A stretch of DNA of 64,000 bases from Anaerolinea thermophila (lineage in GTDB: Bacteria > Chloroflexota > Anaerolineae > Anaerolineales > Anaerolineaceae): the NCBI RefSeq assembly GCF_020723905.1, contig NZ_DYHZ01000001.1, positions 241,501-305,500 of the forward strand. The letters run 5' to 3'. Positions within the stretch are counted from its first letter, which is position 1, and each line of letters opens with the position of its first letter. This document shows positions 50,300 to 57,445 of the stretch, in pieces. Below the pieces are notes generated by a model, which was not told where the DNA came from, ran no database searches, and saw only the letters and a program-made list of their open reading frames with translations. The position numbers were made by a program, and so were the translations under genes.

Positions 50300-52462
50300 T
50301 CATTGACCCTCAGGAATGGGAGCCAGCGGATGAACAGGCAAAGGCACAAACAGCAAACGAGGCTGAAAAGGAACAGGGGGAGGGCTTTCTAACGGCTGAA
50401 GGATTTCCTCTGCCGCTCGTTGTACCAGACGGGCATAACGGTCCACGTCCACCATCGAGGGGGCAGGCATGTCCACACTGACGCCCTGACGGGTAAACCA
50501 GAAATGCAGGCGCATCCCTGCCCGCACAGCAACTCCCCGCTCTGCCAGCAATCGCGCCGCCTGAGCGGCGGGACCGGGTTTCCGGAAACTCTCCGGCGCC
50601 CGGCTTAGTTTCACTGCCACTTTGAGCACCGCAGGAGGAATTTGCCCCCGGCTCAATCGCTGGAGTTCCCGCTGAACCAGGACTCTGGCATCGGCAACCC
50701 GCTCGCGGGGATCTTCTGCCTGAGCCAGAATACGTAAAATTTCCCCCTGAACACTGGCGGCAAACGCACAGGTGTCGTGACGGCGCAGGGCAAGCCCCCG
50801 CACTTTCAGAGTGCCATCTTCAAAGACGCCAAAGTACCGGTTGGGCACCGGCGTCCTGCCATCCTGCCGGGAGGGCAGGAAAACCAGCCAGCGGTAAATT
50901 CCTTCCAGCGTCACCCCAATGGAGGTTCTAGCTTGAATGGCTTCCAGCAGGGGGGCAACATCTTCACGGCACAGCCCACCCTCGCGATGCACGAATAAAC
51001 TATCCACGTACATATGCAGAACGGTAAAGCCCTGTTCTTCTGCCAGTTCCTTGGCTTGCAGAAGCAGTTCCCGGCTCAGGGCAGTCACCTTTTCATGCGA
51101 CTCCACCTTCCCAAAGCGCGCATTCTTATATCCCAGATAGCCAAAACACACCACCAGCAGCCATTTCAGCGCGGACTGGCGGGCTTTAAGCCCGGCAATG
51201 CGCTCATCTCTCGGATCAAGGGTTTGCAGGCGCTGTTTCAGCGCCAGCCGTTTGCGTAAGAGAGGGGTCAGGGTACGTGGAATCAAGCCGGGCGGGGCAT
51301 CGGGATGTGCCAGCGTTTCAGGGGAGATATTGGCTTGCACCATAATCGAAGGGTACATGGAGGCAAAATCAATCTCAGCCACATGGCGATACACTCCAAC
51401 CAGTGGCTGATAGATCATCCCCCCGCGGTCTGCACGAATCAAGTCGCTCAACGTGCGCGGGGATTCGGCTTGCTGTTTGACGGCAGGAATCAACACCCCT
51501 TCCTGGAGTGCGGTCAACATCTGCATGGCAGTAATGCCCGCCCCCGGCGACTTGCGCGCGGTTTCCTGCACCCCCAGTTGGGTCACCCGTGCCAGTTCCA
51601 TGGCGCCTTCCAGCCCAATTTCACCAAACAGGGCAGCGTTGCGCCGGTCGATGTGCCAGCGTCCAAACAGGAAGGCTTGCTCACCGCGATAAAGCACCTG
51701 TCCATAGGCAAACAGGGTGCGAGCCGGACGCACTGCTACTGCCATCCCTGGGTCGCGATTGAGATTGAACTCTGGAAACACTTTCTGGAGAAAAGGGAAA
51801 AGCCAGGTATCTCCATAATCAGTGAGAATCACATCAGGATCAAAACGGGAGAGCAATGCGCGCAAATTTGCTCCAAACGCCCGCAGAGGCTCAAGGCTCA
51901 AACGGTACCGGAACGTCTGAAAGCGCAGATCCAACCAGGCAGGCGGGGACAGGTGAGGATCGTCCGGCAGTTCTACTTCCAGAATCCGCAGGGAGGGAGC
52001 AGACGGATCCAGATCCCAGGGCGAGTCCAGAGGACTCAGCATGAGAATCTGTTCGCCATCGGTGGTAAAGCGGCATTGACCCAAAAGATGCACGCCTGTA
52101 TGCCCCGCCAGCCGGACACCCAGAGGCAGGTCGGCATCGTAGTAATCCAGCAGAGGGAAGTTTCGGCGCAGGTCATGGTACACAGCCTGCGCCGATGCGG
52201 GGTCAGGCAGGGTCACCGCCATCACAGGACACTGCCCGCGGAAGAGATCCTTTCGGTCCTGGCGCTCACACGACACAGAACGACTGCTAAGGTAGCGCCA
52301 TGCCTGACGCAAGTCTGCCCGCCCTCCGGTAACGTAGAAAGTCACAGGGAGGTGCATACGCAAGAGCCAGCGTTTTCCGGTCTGGTCAATCAGCCACAGC
52401 ATGGGAGTGCCATCCGGGCGCAGGTACACATCCATTAACCAGCCAAGGCATTCAACCTTCAT
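50300..52462 (-). CDS. Divergent family B DNA polymerase, probably proofreading-deficient
   Basis: Polymerase of 720 residues. Palm motif A is EIDFASMYPSI with Asp365; motif B is ARQSALKWLLVVCFGYLGYKNARFG near 428-450; motif C is LHMYVDSLFV, keeping the second Asp (487) of DTDS while the first is Tyr. The thumb block RGLALRRHDT lies near 555. In the exonuclease region Exo I reads LEVE instead of DIE, and the YN-D-FD motif reads DYGDTWLF, so proofreading is probably lost. QPRLLF near the C-terminus fits a hexapeptide clamp motif. ATG 52462 overlaps the stop of the coiled-coil gene by 11 bases. Confidence 0.85.
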   Translation of the reverse strand: MKVECLGWLMDVYLRPDGTPMLWLIDQTGKRWLLRMHLPVTFYVTGGRADLRQAWRYLSSRSVSCERQDRKDLFRGQCPVMAVTLPDPASAQAVYHDLRRNFPLLDYYDADLPLGVRLAGHTGVHLLGQCRFTTDGEQILMLSPLDSPWDLDPSAPSLRILEVELPDDPHLSPPAWLDLRFQTFRYRLSLEPLRAFGANLRALLSRFDPDVILTDYGDTWLFPFLQKVFPEFNLNRDPGMAVAVRPARTLFAYGQVLYRGEQAFLFGRWHIDRRNAALFGEIGLEGAMELARVTQLGVQETARKSPGAGITAMQMLTALQEGVLIPAVKQQAESPRTLSDLIRADRGGMIYQPLVGVYRHVAEIDFASMYPSIMVQANISPETLAHPDAPPGLIPRTLTPLLRKRLALKQRLQTLDPRDERIAGLKARQSALKWLLVVCFGYLGYKNARFGKVESHEKVTALSRELLLQAKELAEEQGFTVLHMYVDSLFVHREGGLCREDVAPLLEAIQARTSIGVTLEGIYRWLVFLPSRQDGRTPVPNRYFGVFEDGTLKVRGLALRRHDTCAFAASVQGEILRILAQAEDPRERVADARVLVQRELQRLSRGQIPPAVLKVAVKLSRAPESFRKPGPAAQAARLLAERGVAVRAGMRLHFWFTRQGVSVDMPAPSMVDVDRYARLVQRAAEEILQPLESPPPVPFQPRLLFVPLPVHPLAPIPEGQ

Positions 52463-52739
52463 GGTTGCGGCGCAAAAGGGCAATTTCCTGCTGAAGGTGC
52501 TGGACTTCCTGTTCCAGAAGCATCACCCGACGCGATTGCTCCAGGAGCATGGCCAGCAGAGCGGCTTCGAACGGCAGGAGCATCTCCGAAGCGGTGATTG
52601 CCGCCAGATGCGGGCGAGCAGAAGCCAGCAGAGCATCCAGCAGCAGTTGATCGCTGCGCCGCAGTGCCCGCCGAAAGCCCTGAAGAGCGGCTTCGGTCTC
52701 GTTCAACTGCCGGGTGAGCGTTGGTACAGTGCGTCCCAT
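52452..52739 (-). CDS. Small coiled-coil protein of the polymerase cassette
   Basis: Not recognised. The 95-residue product is wholly helical, with heptad-like leucines in its second half (AMLLEQSRRVMLLEQEVQHLQQEIALL), predicting a dimeric coiled coil. It starts 8 bases after the RecA-like gene and overlaps the polymerase start by 11 bases, so all three are probably made in fixed ratio. It may be a bridging subunit between the RecA-like protein and the polymerase; this is inference from position only. Confidence 0.7.
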   Translation of the reverse strand: MGRTVPTLTRQLNETEAALQGFRRALRRSDQLLLDALLASARPHLAAITASEMLLPFEAALLAMLLEQSRRVMLLEQEVQHLQQEIALLRRNHEG

Positions 52740-52747
52740 ACCTGCTG

Positions 52748-53287
52748 TTAGAAGAGGGAAAACTGAACGGGCGGCGCAGAAGGCTGAGGTTCGAGCCAGA
52801 GCGCATCAGCGCGCTGACAGACGACCTCAAACAACGAATACCGACGCGGGGTAGGTGGGGGAGTCAGGGTGACAATCACCGGCGCCAGCACACGCAGGGA
52901 ATCGCTCCGTTCTAAACAGCGTTTCAACAGGGATTGCGCCTCCTTCAACGGCAGGGTCTCATCGTAAAAACTTGCCAGCAGATCCAGCAGGATGCAGGGG
53001 ACAGAGGAGGGAGAACTCTCTTCCAGCAATGCCAGCATCTGATATGCCGTGAACGCCCGCCGCACATAAATGCGCTGACTCACTTCTTCCACAGCAGGAG
53101 TATGACGGCGAATCAACCGCGTCAACGGGTAGGCTTGCAGGCGATTACCGCCATCCAGAACCTGTACCGTCCCGCCTAATGCCAGCCGGACAATCAGGGG
53201 GGAAATGTGGTCAGCGGCGGCGTGCGTCGCACAGATCACTGCCATCGAACCGGCAGGAAAGGATTGGGAAAGCATGATGTCGTTCAT
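52748..53287 (-). CDS. RecA-like protein lacking Walker A, with terminal clamp motif
   Basis: Protein of 179 residues resembling the RecA/RadA core: a strand-rich start (GSMAVICATHAAADHISPLIVRLAL) where the P-loop should be, but with no GK[ST]; then VQVLDGGNRLQAYPL, QRIYVRRAFTAYQMLALLE and a Walker B-like CILLDLLASF near 98-107. The C-terminus is QFSLF, close to the QL[SD]LF beta-clamp pentapeptide. By analogy with ImuA, it may be an inactive RecA paralog that organises a translesion polymerase. Family assignment rests on pattern resemblance, not on a search. It is 72 bases after the LuxR gene. Confidence 0.65.
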   Translation of the reverse strand: MNDIMLSQSFPAGSMAVICATHAAADHISPLIVRLALGGTVQVLDGGNRLQAYPLTRLIRRHTPAVEEVSQRIYVRRAFTAYQMLALLEESSPSSVPCILLDLLASFYDETLPLKEAQSLLKRCLERSDSLRVLAPVIVTLTPPPTPRRYSLFEVVCQRADALWLEPQPSAPPVQFSLF

Positions 53288-53359
53288 CGCTTTCCATGGT
53301 AAGCCATGAAAAGCCTTTTGCCCATTCCCTCTGGGAGGAGAAAGCAGGGGATTTTGTGG

Positions 53360-53776
53360 TTAACCCGTGGGGGGATTTTCCCAGGATGAAAAATCCCACT
53401 CCGCAAGCAGGCGGCGCAGTTCGCTTTTGCTGTGCACTTCAAAGTGAGCCAGCGCATTGCGCAGATGAGTCTTGACCGTTTCGGGAGAGATGCCCATGCG
53501 TTGAGCAATTTGCCGGTTGGTGTACCCCAGACAGGCAAGCGCAACTGCCTGCTGCTCCCGCGGAGTAAGCAGTAGCCAGCGCCGCCAGAGATCCTCGCGC
53601 AGGTGCATGGTCTGCAAAGCCGTATCAATGAGTTGTTCGGCAAGTTGCGACTCGGGAACTCCCGTCTGCTGTGCAAGCAGGCGCAACAGGTCTTCGGTGC
53701 GCTGAGAGACCTCAAAGGTGCGTGCTTGTTTTCCGGGCGCTCTCCACCACCCCCGCAGCCACTCCCACAGGTTCAT
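53360..53776 (-). CDS. LuxR/GerE-type transcription regulator of the polymerase cassette
   Basis: Protein of 138 residues. The C-terminal HTH covers about 68-125: LTPREQQAVALACLGYTNRQIAQRMGISPETVKTHL is a typical GerE helix-turn-helix. The N-terminal 60 residues are helical with a ribbon-helix-like segment (TEDLLRLLAQQTGVPESQLAEQLI), without a receiver domain. The ATG coincides with the predicted transcription start, giving a leaderless mRNA. It may fine-tune the cassette. Confidence 0.82.
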   Translation of the reverse strand: MNLWEWLRGWWRAPGKQARTFEVSQRTEDLLRLLAQQTGVPESQLAEQLIDTALQTMHLREDLWRRWLLLTPREQQAVALACLGYTNRQIAQRMGISPETVKTHLRNALAHFEVHSKSELRRLLAEWDFSSWENPPTG

Positions 53777-53782
53777 GATTTC

Positions 53783-53811
53783 ATTGTATTAGAACAAAAG
53801 TTCTATGTCAA
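53783..53811 (-). promoter_or_regulatory. Promoter of the polymerase cassette
   Basis: On the minus strand TTGACA (53811-53806), a spacer of exactly 17 bases and TACAAT (53788-53783). Start predicted at about 53776, the first base of the LuxR ATG. Confidence 0.8.
53790..53805. promoter_or_regulatory. LexA-type SOS box inside the promoter spacer
   Basis: Perfect palindrome TAGAACAAAAGTTCTA. The GAAC-N4-GTTC core is that of Gram-positive LexA (Cheo) boxes. It fills the space between -35 and -10, where LexA binding would block RNA polymerase. Confidence 0.75.
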
Positions 53812-53974: not shown

Positions 53975-56900
53975 TCACTGAGAAGCGCGGGCAAAGGTGA
54001 CCACCAGGTGCTTGATTTCCCCATCCCGCCAGAAGATGTGGCGACTGGTCTCGACATCCAGGCGGCGCCCTGCCAGCCGGCGAGAGGTCTCATCGGCAAA
54101 GTGAATCTGGATTTCATCGCGCTCGCCCAGTTGCACTGTAACAGGCGTCTGGCAAACAAAAGAGGTGAGCGAACCTGCGGGCAGGTGCAGAGTCTGCTGT
54201 TCACCGGATACATCCAGATAGGTGAAAGTGCGCGGGGACAAAAGCAGTTCATCAGTATCCAGAAGAAACGGATTGAAGACCAGTCGCCCTTCTGCAAACT
54301 GGACTCCAACCTCCGCCTGACGGGTGAGAATCTCTTCTTTGACCGTACCGGTCATACCGGGCTGGCGAGCGCCGCGTCCTTTGGGGGTATGAGAATAGGG
54401 GTCGGTAGGGAAAGCGCCATACTCAGCAGGCGACTTGTGATACCCCAGTCCCGCCCGGATATCCCGGTACGCTGCGCGCAAGCCCTCTGCCGTCTCTTCA
54501 TGCTGACAGCGCAGGGCAGTCTCCTGAACTGCCAGCAGGAGTTTACTCACCATGTGCCAGTACACGCTGCCCAACCCTTCATAGGCAAAGAAAGTACCGG
54601 AACGCCCGGTAAACTCTGCATGCCGGAAGGTAGTTTCAAACAGGTGCTGAATGGCTTCACCTTCCTCTTCTACCAGTTGGGCATACGCCGGATGGCGCTT
54701 CAGTGCCTCCAGCGCTTTACGCACATCCTTCACATTTCGCAGGTCACTGGCAAAATGATACAGACCGTGAATATCCCGGGTGAACAGGGTGGTGTCCTGA
54801 TTCTCCACCAGCAAAGCCGGTAATTTCAAATGGCTGACCTGTTCAGGTACAAGTGTATTCTTTTTCAGGAAGGAAGGCAGTACGCGATCAGGGTAGAGAA
54901 TGTACGTATGCTGATCGGCACGATAGAGAGCACTGTTACGCAGGCTTTGCAAAAGTTTGAGAGACTCCTCCCCGCTGAGCAAACCGGAAGATAGGATAGA
55001 CACCTGCCCCTCAAGCATTTCGTACAGGCGGTCTACATAAGCCCGTCCCGGTTCGAGACGCAACAGGTTGTAGGAATGGTAGAGAAAATCTGGACGCCGA
55101 TTGGCACGCAGGCTGTGATCCACATATTCCTGCGCCATCGCCAGGAACGCCTGTAATTCACTGGCAGACAACTGGCTCAATGCGCCGCTGAAACCGTGAT
55201 GATAAAGACGCCAGCGGTACTCACTCCCCGACTCGCCCAGCGCATCCATCATGGCACGGCGTTGTTCAGGGGTAAATGTGCCCTCCAGAACAGGATGGAA
55301 CTGCTTTAACACGGCGGCAATTGCATCGAGCAGGTCTTTCACCTCACTGTGCAGGGTAAAAGCGCCGCTTTCGTGCTGAATCAACTGGCGGAAAAAGGCG
55401 AGAAAACGGCGCAGGTATCCAAGCGTGACCACCGAGAGCCCGCGTCCCACCAGGGCATTGTTGGCATCGTTCCACTCAGGGCGCTGGGTATTCATCCAGA
55501 TACCGCCCTCGGGAACAAAGTTGACCAGTTTTGCCAGCAGCAGGGTGAGCAGTTTCTCAGTGAAGGAAGCATGCACCACATTGCCTTCGGAATCGCACAA
55601 AAGACGCGCATCACTCCCACGCTGTTTCACCTCCTGCTCAATACGCCTGTGCAGGGCGTGATCGAACACAATCGTATTGTAAGGATCCTTCTGTAACTCG
55701 CTGTAGGGTTTGATGCGATAGGGAACATTGGCATAACTTAAGAACGGTTGATTGAGCCGTTCGCGGATTGCGCCGGGGTAAAACGCCTCGCTGGCTTCCA
55801 TCAATTTTTGCAGATAGATGATCTGATGATCGCTCCAGTAGCCAATGTTTGCCCAGGGGTTGCCCTCTTCAGGGACTTCCCAATCCAGCCCGGCCCGGTT
55901 GATACGGTAGGGGTTATAGCCATCAGCAGTGGTAGCGCACAGGAAGGTGTTGAGCATGGCTTCAATGTATTGGGGATACGAATAAGCCAGCGCTTCCCAG
56001 TTCTGGAAGATATCGCGCCAGTTTCCTTCATAATCCAGGCGCAGAGAGCCATCCCGTTTTTTGATATTGATGAAAAAGCGATTCCACGGACGGCTGGGGT
56101 CACCATGTCGGCGGCTGAAGGTCAAAGGCAAATACGTGTGAATCAGCCGGCGAAGGTCAGGAGCATCGAGTTCTGCCACGCGGGCATACAGATCGGAAAG
56201 ATGAATGTTGTCTGGCAGAGCGGCAAAAAATTCCGCGTATGTCTCTGTCAGGTTATGTTGGTGAATATGCACGAAATCCATCAGGTCGGCTTTTTCAATC
56301 CAGTAGGAACGGGCAAAAACGCCCCCGCGCATGATGTTGAACAGCACATTGGCATAGTGATGCGTGGTGGCAAGCCCACTTTCAGAGATCTGTAAACCGT
56401 CGGCGCTGGCAACAAACTTCTGCAGGTTAAATGTGGTGAAATCAATATCCTGTTCAATAGCCTGCTTTTGCTCTTCAAACGGCAACCGCAGGAAGTCCCG
56501 CAGGCGCGCCAGCGCGGCATGATCCAGATGGACATCGGCAACCTGATACCAGTTGATTTCCTCACCAGCCTGCAACCTCACGTGGGCATGGACAAAGTAA
56601 GCCCCGCGCTCCCCCCGGACTTCTTTTTCCGGTTCAATTTGCCCTCCAAAGCGGAAAGCGTCTAATTGATTGGAAGAAAGCAGGAAGCCAAGGGGATTAA
56701 GCCCCACCTGAAATACAGTGTTCGCCGCCAGCGATTCGCTGGGTTCTGCCAGGTCGGTCAGGCGGGAATTGAGGGTAAAAAGCCCCAGGTTGGTTTCTTC
56801 GTCCAATTCACTGCGCTTGTAAGCATCCAGCAGGCAACTGAAGATATTTTGAACACTGGCGCTGACATTGGCGGGCAGGATGTTTTGTAAACCGTCCAGC

Positions 56901-57445
56901 AACTCCACTTCGCAGGGGGTCTGGAAATGGCTCGCATTGCGCAACCAGGCAGTCTTCACGAAACCAAACCGGTCACTGGTGCGCCAGGCATACCGGAATA
57001 CCAGTTCCAGAGAATGATTGATTTCTTCAAACACCAGGGCAGTTCCGGGAATATTTTTGTAGAGATTGCGCTCGACGTGGTACTGTCCCTGCTGACGGAC
57101 GGAAAAGGGCTCCCAGAGCCAGGTTTGGGCGCCGCGGGTCACGCGCAGGATGGTTTTCGGTCCGGTGTTTTCGCTGTTTTCAGTGATTTTATCTTCGGTA
57201 TAGTAAGGAAACAGCGCCTGATCGGCATGTGCGCGACCGGCAGTCACTCCGCCGGTAGAAGCGACAAACAGCCAGTGATCGGCGCCGCTGACAATGCTCA
57301 TGAAGAAGGGCGGCATGGCGTCATAATGCTGAATTTTGTAATAAGTCTCCCTCAGCATGGGGACATATCCCCCGATTGGTTCAACAGGCGGGGGAGTGAG
57401 CAGGGTTTCTCCAATATAGGTGGGAACACGTTTAGATTTCAGCAT
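53975..57445 (-). CDS. Large GH94-like glycoside phosphorylase, probably beta-1,3-glucan
   Basis: Protein of 1156 residues without signal peptide, so cytoplasmic. The N-terminal third is beta-rich (HWLFVASTGGVTAGR), followed by a helical part with repeated aromatic motifs typical of an (alpha/alpha)6 barrel, such as LDYEGNWRDIFQNWEALA and NIGYWSDHQIIYLQKLME. PEWNDANNAL near residue 656 resembles the WND block that holds the catalytic Asp in GH94 phosphorylases. Size and context (two GH16 genes and a sugar importer) point to the beta-1,3-glucan phosphorylase families GH149 or GH161. The exact family could not be decided without a search. Confidence 0.65.
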   Translation of the reverse strand: MLKSKRVPTYIGETLLTPPPVEPIGGYVPMLRETYYKIQHYDAMPPFFMSIVSGADHWLFVASTGGVTAGRAHADQALFPYYTEDKITENSENTGPKTILRVTRGAQTWLWEPFSVRQQGQYHVERNLYKNIPGTALVFEEINHSLELVFRYAWRTSDRFGFVKTAWLRNASHFQTPCEVELLDGLQNILPANVSASVQNIFSCLLDAYKRSELDEETNLGLFTLNSRLTDLAEPSESLAANTVFQVGLNPLGFLLSSNQLDAFRFGGQIEPEKEVRGERGAYFVHAHVRLQAGEEINWYQVADVHLDHAALARLRDFLRLPFEEQKQAIEQDIDFTTFNLQKFVASADGLQISESGLATTHHYANVLFNIMRGGVFARSYWIEKADLMDFVHIHQHNLTETYAEFFAALPDNIHLSDLYARVAELDAPDLRRLIHTYLPLTFSRRHGDPSRPWNRFFINIKKRDGSLRLDYEGNWRDIFQNWEALAYSYPQYIEAMLNTFLCATTADGYNPYRINRAGLDWEVPEEGNPWANIGYWSDHQIIYLQKLMEASEAFYPGAIRERLNQPFLSYANVPYRIKPYSELQKDPYNTIVFDHALHRRIEQEVKQRGSDARLLCDSEGNVVHASFTEKLLTLLLAKLVNFVPEGGIWMNTQRPEWNDANNALVGRGLSVVTLGYLRRFLAFFRQLIQHESGAFTLHSEVKDLLDAIAAVLKQFHPVLEGTFTPEQRRAMMDALGESGSEYRWRLYHHGFSGALSQLSASELQAFLAMAQEYVDHSLRANRRPDFLYHSYNLLRLEPGRAYVDRLYEMLEGQVSILSSGLLSGEESLKLLQSLRNSALYRADQHTYILYPDRVLPSFLKKNTLVPEQVSHLKLPALLVENQDTTLFTRDIHGLYHFASDLRNVKDVRKALEALKRHPAYAQLVEEEGEAIQHLFETTFRHAEFTGRSGTFFAYEGLGSVYWHMVSKLLLAVQETALRCQHEETAEGLRAAYRDIRAGLGYHKSPAEYGAFPTDPYSHTPKGRGARQPGMTGTVKEEILTRQAEVGVQFAEGRLVFNPFLLDTDELLLSPRTFTYLDVSGEQQTLHLPAGSLTSFVCQTPVTVQLGERDEIQIHFADETSRRLAGRRLDVETSRHIFWRDGEIKHLVVTFARASQ

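Follow-up and report, generated by a model that had tools for sequence, protein, structure and literature searches.

Family B DNA polymerases of the PolB2 group belong to a described multiprotein system. In Makarova 2014 (PMC4104785), PolB2 was linked to an inactivated RadA and to a helical protein of small size; the link extends to several bacteria, some of them with lexA as well. The names PPB2 (partner of PolB2) and iRadA come from Timinskas 2025 (PMC11791011), where a heteropentamer was modelled. According to the available portions of that paper, bacteria show the single gene order iRadA-PPB2-PolB2, PPB2 has a conserved MGRT start, PolB2 has mostly lost the first Asp of its DxD motif and lacks the exonuclease active site, and clamp motifs are found on iRadA or PolB2 but rarely on both. 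Here a cassette of this type is analysed in a 64,000-nt stretch of Anaerolinea thermophila (assembly GCF_020723905.1, contig NZ_DYHZ01000001.1, positions 241,501-305,500), hereafter the window. The cassette occupies 50,300-53,811 of the window and is led by a LuxR-type gene; the three genes behind it almost certainly constitute the PolB2-type mutasome of the two papers. With a probability of about 0.68, the sequence points to an SOS-controlled PolB2 translesion mutasome wired as a relay, in which LexA would repress luxR and LuxR would activate iRadA-PPB2-PolB2.

What looks new is the luxR gene at the head of the cassette, to which the original prediction had given no role, together with a second promoter element; the mutasome itself is already known. 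The original prediction, made from the DNA letters, had considered the combination undescribed. This did not hold, as the available text of PMC4104785 and PMC11791011 already presents the PolB2-iRadA-PPB2 cassette, the small coiled-coil protein included. The word LuxR is absent from the main text of Timinskas 2025 (PMC11791011), and the word stem Chloroflex was not found in the main texts searched (supplements excluded). Among the open-licence PMC full texts, no paper was found that joins PolB2 with LuxR or PolB2 with Chloroflexi.

All four genes lie on the minus strand, in the order LuxR-type protein (138 aa, 53360-53776), iRadA (179 aa, 52748-53287), PPB2 (95 aa, 52452-52739) and polymerase (720 aa, 50300-52462), and the last two overlap by 11 bp. 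The predicted same-direction set of four was confirmed by the open reading frames and by Pfam, profile and fold matches. The LuxR protein, the proposed activator of the relay, matches Pfam GerE (helix-turn-helix, 5.5e-15) and ends in WDFSSW. Single-sequence Pfam and NCBIfam scans gave no useful match for iRadA and PPB2. A 42-row iRadA profile retrieves RadA in the PDB (6.7e-12), and the AlphaFold model (pLDDT 93, pTM 0.87) matches RAD51/RadA chains in a fold comparison; the Walker A pattern GxxxxGK[ST] is not present in the iRadA sequence. The RecA-like protein without Walker A that had been predicted is thus an inactive protein of the RadA/RAD51 fold. Profile searches had been suggested as a check: they return a PolB match for the polymerase, and RadA for the 179-aa protein by the 42-row profile only. 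The predicted coiled-coil protein is present and was identified as PPB2 by its place in the gene order and its MGRT start, which recurs in 20/23 full PPB2 rows (MGNT in 1, MGHT in 2; L071, whose start is missing, was excluded). Profiles derived from the class also find iRadA and PPB2 adjoining some archaeal PolB2 genes (L207, L209-L212). In one locus (L166:5226-5996), iRadA and PPB2 matches share a reading frame, an apparent fusion of the kind described in Timinskas 2025. In another (L055/L159), LuxR and iRadA are followed by PolB2 and PPB2 was not found; the coding strand of L055 holds no MG(R/H)T start.

The polymerase matches Pfam DNA_pol_B (2.5e-25), and its best NCBIfam model is the type-B polymerase NF004416 with 373 bits, under the curated cut-off of 516. 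It is assigned to the bacterial G2 group of PolB2. Motif C has YVD instead of DxD (51002-51010, minus strand): the second Asp is invariant in 23/23 aligned members and the first is kept in 0/23, its position being taken by Y, I, L or N. D345 R346 (51425-51430, minus strand) represent the D(K/R) motif, with D in 23/23 and a following K or R in 13/23. No exonuclease-domain family appears among the Pfam matches up to an E-value of 1. When compared to Pyrococcus-type polymerases, the catalytic exonuclease residues are not aligned, in a stretch that itself aligns weakly (7.5 bits), and these residues are not conserved across the 23 relatives aligned. All of this agrees with the predicted family B polymerase whose proofreading motifs appear eroded.

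Two clamp-binding-like motifs had been predicted, one of which stands. The QFSLF at the C-terminus of iRadA (52751-52765, minus strand) has counterparts in many relatives, which end in QPxLF or QLxLF, and a loose regular expression for the clamp motif matches 43/62 Chloroflexota iRadA rows (duplicates included; at least one match, in L160, is spurious). The near-C-terminal QPRLLF of the polymerase does not recur in the polymerase C-termini compared. In the window, iRadA and PolB2 each have a clamp-like string, a case that the available text of PMC11791011 calls rare. In two other loci (L063 and L065), a clamp-like QMELPLF lies near the PolB2 C-terminus, and the iRadA end of L065 is without such a motif; it is possible that the clamp tether was swapped from iRadA to the polymerase in L065.

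Polymerase matches occur in 32/298 genomes of the class (at most three first-look candidates scored per genome; some of the weakest are other polymerases). A scan of named genomes, bacterial and archaeal, yielded 110 relatives, of which the best 80 were kept. The closest among these are Anaerolineae (Bellilinea caldifistulae 65%, Anaerolinea thermolimosa 62%), followed by relatives whose record titles name Armatimonadetes, Nitrospirota, Pseudomonadota, Deltaproteobacteria or Thermodesulfobacteriota, Methylomirabilota or NC10, Patescibacteria and archaea. A neighbourhood survey across Chloroflexota, likewise suggested with the original prediction, found the order iRadA-PPB2-PolB2 kept, with PPB2 called in 55/57 rows that have iRadA (rows of identical iRadA merged). 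The luxR gene stands upstream in 42 of these 57 rows, or in 40/55 without the double-counted loci (L055/L159, L061/L172); two of the 15 rows without LuxR are technical (a contig edge in L153, a broken iRadA in L180). Loci cut by contig ends, with no upstream sequence or no iRadA call, were excluded from the row and box counts. The 4.5 kb upstream of 37 loci from other or unassigned groups, many of them cut short, yielded no luxR; 19 of the 37 have iRadA plus upstream sequence. Judged by this distribution, LuxR looks like a lineage-specific addition to the cassette. Its C-terminal tail is conserved as WDFxxW in 27 rows, divergent ones excluded. In more distant families (L064-L067), the LuxR upstream of iRadA has, by eye, a hydrophobic, membrane-like N-terminus instead of a soluble one.

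The luxR gene is preceded by a sigma-70-like promoter (53783-53811, minus strand; TTGACA, 17 nt, TACAAT; 11/12 of the consensus) that ends 6 nt before its ATG. This match alone is not beyond chance (one found, 0.6 expected in the region). Between its -35 and -10 lies the LexA-type operator AGAAC-N4-GTTCT (53791-53804, no strand assigned), with AAAA as spacer; in this form it occurs once in the window, with 0.04 expected. The own lexA promoter is laid out in the same way, its box differing at one position (7/8). From 33 LexA-domain matches, 30 with loci were used: GAAC-N4-GTTC is complete upstream of 28/30 lexA genes of the class and at least 7/8 in 29/30, against 10/237 and 25/237 control windows. 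The predicted LexA-type palindrome is therefore found where it was expected, with a core that is probably LexA's. Of the 42 rows with luxR, 35 have the complete box ahead of that gene and 39 have at least 7/8; the corresponding counts are 7/1559 and 90/1559 for random 230-bp windows, and 0/19 and 1/19 for the loci of other groups. In a set of Chloroflexota loci that includes those without local luxR, it is complete in 25/39. With 42 sites in the own genome (19 for the reversed pattern), GAAC-N4-GTTC by itself is no rarity, so that the argument for LexA rests on promoter position and conservation. On these grounds luxR is very probably under LexA control. Since the box sits in the luxR promoter, it might instead be an autoregulatory operator of LuxR itself. 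We give this next to no credence, as the same core is found at lexA and, in genomes where no full-length luxR was found, at iRadA; LuxR was accordingly rejected as the owner of GAAC-N4-GTTC. In five loci (L057, L058, L065, L067, L072), LexA-type boxes of 7/8 or 8/8 stand before luxR and also directly before iRadA.

A second conserved element of about 75 bp (53293-53367, minus strand) lies directly before iRadA and is the candidate LuxR-dependent promoter. It comprises GGxTTAxCC and C-rich repeats spaced about 11 bp apart (by eye), then C and G runs that form an inverted repeat, and TAnnnT a few bases before the iRadA start codon. In the window the -10-like hexamer is TACCAT (53296-53301, minus strand); across 30 aligned sequences, none departs from its T, A and last T. 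The centre of the inverted repeat lies some 30 bp before the -10 (near -42), and most sequences show no TTGACA. Such a layout suggests an activator-dependent promoter, with the activator in place of a -35. A model of the element, with the window in its training set and at most 150 first-look candidates scored per genome, finds this promoter in the own genome at 1.8e-6 and the next site at 0.1 (150 of 768 candidates scored); nothing significant was found in G253, G308 and G111 on the same terms. The C-rich inverted repeat was also considered as a luxR terminator and rejected, since loci that lack an upstream luxR retain it.

Differences between genomes in the presence and place of luxR offer a natural experiment on the element. 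A profile was trained only on 27 sequences from loci that contain luxR, the training rows including mutual close relatives; it provides the sole held-out test, as model R1 was trained also on the window and on loci without local luxR. This profile scores 8/9 loci without local luxR at 11.3-30.4 bits, the best of 3,779 control 80-mers reaching 4.5, and finds 0/4 loci of genomes in which no luxR was found and 0/16 loci of other groups. A whole-genome search located luxR elsewhere in 5/9 genomes without local luxR: G299 (Bellilinea), G302, G304, G305 and G306. Five unlinked luxR genes could be read, and each carries a 7/8 or 8/8 LexA-type box; two further matches (L231 and L232) were unreadable and were not used. 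The unlinked luxR of G306 adjoins a second iRadA-like gene. For the genome of L166, a second iRadA-like gene next to a LuxR gene is seen at L228, followed by a UvrC-like start, both by eye. Full-length luxR (E below 1e-40) is present in 13/25 genomes searched, 12 of the 13 with PolB2, and was not found in G233, G039, G253, G280 and G130, which have PolB2 or a fragment of it. In G253, G280, G307 and G308, where no full-length luxR was found, the element is gone and the iRadA promoters carry a 7/8 or 8/8 LexA-type box. In the PolB2 tree, read without support values, the loci of these four genomes fall into three lineages, of which two sit inside groups that carry luxR. Control of the cassette by LexA thus seems to be kept, either via a LexA-boxed luxR or directly at iRadA where luxR was not found.

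From the pairing of element and gene, LuxR probably acts on the iRadA promoter, through predicted binding there. We also favour, somewhat more tentatively, a two-tier SOS relay in which LuxR would serve apparently one genomic site and LexA would repeatedly have taken over the promoter in genomes with no luxR. A simpler arrangement has to be weighed against it, namely a one-tier SOS operon with LexA acting directly on a single luxR-iRadA-PPB2-PolB2 transcript, LuxR regulating something else, and the second element serving the binding of an unrelated factor, read-through or termination. The LexA-type box at the first promoter, the close spacing of the genes in the window and the lack of any listed terminator-like site between luxR and iRadA would all suit it. 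However, one transcript does not account for an invariant T-A-T -10-like pattern near the iRadA start, nor for an element that is present in 8/9 loci without upstream luxR and missing in 4/4 where no luxR was found in the genome; if the element were the terminator of luxR, loci without that gene would not retain it. The one-tier operon is therefore considered rather unlikely.

Several observations weigh against the relay. The element scores in only 2/8 rows with divergent LuxR (7.1 and 10.2 bits). Where an ordinary LuxR goes together with another LexA-type box at iRadA (L057, L058), one row stays within the control range (3.7 bits) and one exceeds it (9.5). L146 has no element score, yet its genome (G302) has luxR elsewhere. 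Conversely, in 4/9 genomes the element is present and luxR was not found; these are metagenome-assembled genomes of 1.6-2.3 Mb with completeness unstated (loci L134, L136, L138, L156). Full-length luxR occurs in 1/7 genomes without a PolB2 match (G271), and full-length luxR was not found in G130, whose PolB2 is a fragment at the end of a contig. The locus classes were drawn after the motif had been seen and before the luxR search, which leaves the latter as an independent check. The conservation of the element could partly be due to retention by descent. On the side of LexA, 24 of 27 RecA matches were used, and recA upstreams show a complete box in 4/24 and at least 7/8 in 16/24 (controls 1/230 and 34/230), their usual form being the GAAC-N4-GTGC variant.

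A LuxR gene of the cassette family with a complete LexA-type box also heads putative operons of LuxR, a TIR-domain protein and a PCMT methyltransferase (L219:4228-5905, L220:3051-4695); the LuxR of L220 is a paralogue, alike in the second half only. These loci look like a second SOS operon with such a LuxR, perhaps a defence-like one. They bear on whether LuxR might, instead of activating the mutasome, be part of it as a structural or DNA-binding subunit, a role that gene adjacency would allow and for which the conserved WDFxxW tail (27 rows without divergent ones) could provide a docking peptide. Such a role appears very improbable: the TIR and PCMT loci are without PolB2, luxR was not found in the 37 loci of other or unassigned groups (many cut short) nor in four genomes that keep the cassette, and its presence tracks the promoter element.

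In the proposed relay, DNA damage would lead to the cleavage of LexA and to the transcription of luxR, whereupon LuxR protein would accumulate. LuxR would then bind the inverted repeat near -42 in the second element and drive iRadA-PPB2-PolB2, from a transcript that is probably near-leaderless; read-through from the luxR promoter may contribute. iRadA, PPB2 and PolB2 would form the mutasome, tethered to the beta clamp by the C-terminal QxxLF of iRadA. By homology with Dpo2, PolB2 without proofreading would extend lesion-blocked ends at the cost of mutations, and the relay would hold mutagenesis back until damage has become lasting.

A cell that carries a mutagenic polymerase runs a risk. In E. 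coli the polymerase is held off by UmuD processing; a transcriptional relay, if true, would be a different solution. The rewiring across genomes offers a natural experiment on mutasome control. A search for Y-family polymerases (PF00817) gave no match in the own genome (99.96% complete), so that the cassette may be its main dedicated damage-bypass machine; there is likewise none in G299 and G309, and one each in G213, G253 and G308.

The genes around the cassette appear unrelated. One flank holds ABC transporter genes (Bmp, ABC_tran); directly upstream, on the same strand, lies a gene for a 1156-aa protein (53975-57445) with no Pfam match at E 0.001.

The ImuA-ImuB-DnaE2 mutasome combines an inactive RecA-like partner, a clamp tether, SOS control and error-prone synthesis. 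These traits are shared with the proposed mutasome of the window, and the predicted parallel holds as functional mutasome-like logic; as an identity it fails, and the system is an analogue only. DnaE2 is a C-family polymerase and ImuB is Y-family-like, whereas the cassette polymerase is family B and the own genome has no PF00817 match, in a search that gave matches in 11/14 control genomes. ImuA-ImuB-DnaE2 was rejected on this basis. E. coli Pol II is an SOS-induced B-family polymerase like that of the window, but it proofreads; the Pol II group was rejected as well, since the window polymerase appears to lack an active proofreading exonuclease. E. coli Pol V is multisubunit with a RecA-fold partner like the cassette; unlike it, Pol V is of the Y-family.

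Dpo2 of Sulfolobus islandicus is described, in the available portions of the reports, as damage-inducible and as driving targeted mutagenesis; it is an active polymerase without exonuclease, faithful on undamaged templates and efficient in the extension of mismatched ends. As a PolB2 it belongs to the same group as the window polymerase. The experiments cited here, as far as the available text goes, concern this archaeal enzyme, and the window would offer a bacterial, SOS-wired PolB2 mutasome. To our knowledge, the archaeal regulation of Dpo2 proceeds without LexA or LuxR.

The closest match remains the PolB2 mutasome itself. The window shares with it the gene order, the MGRT of PPB2, the D(K/R) motif, the lost first Asp of DxD and the eroded exonuclease, and likewise an iRadA of RadA fold without Walker A, its clamp-like motif and the SOS link in bacteria. 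The arrangement of the regulator differs: the available text of the two papers places lexA genes near bacterial polB2, whereas here a LuxR gene comes first in the cassette and lexA is found on a different contig.

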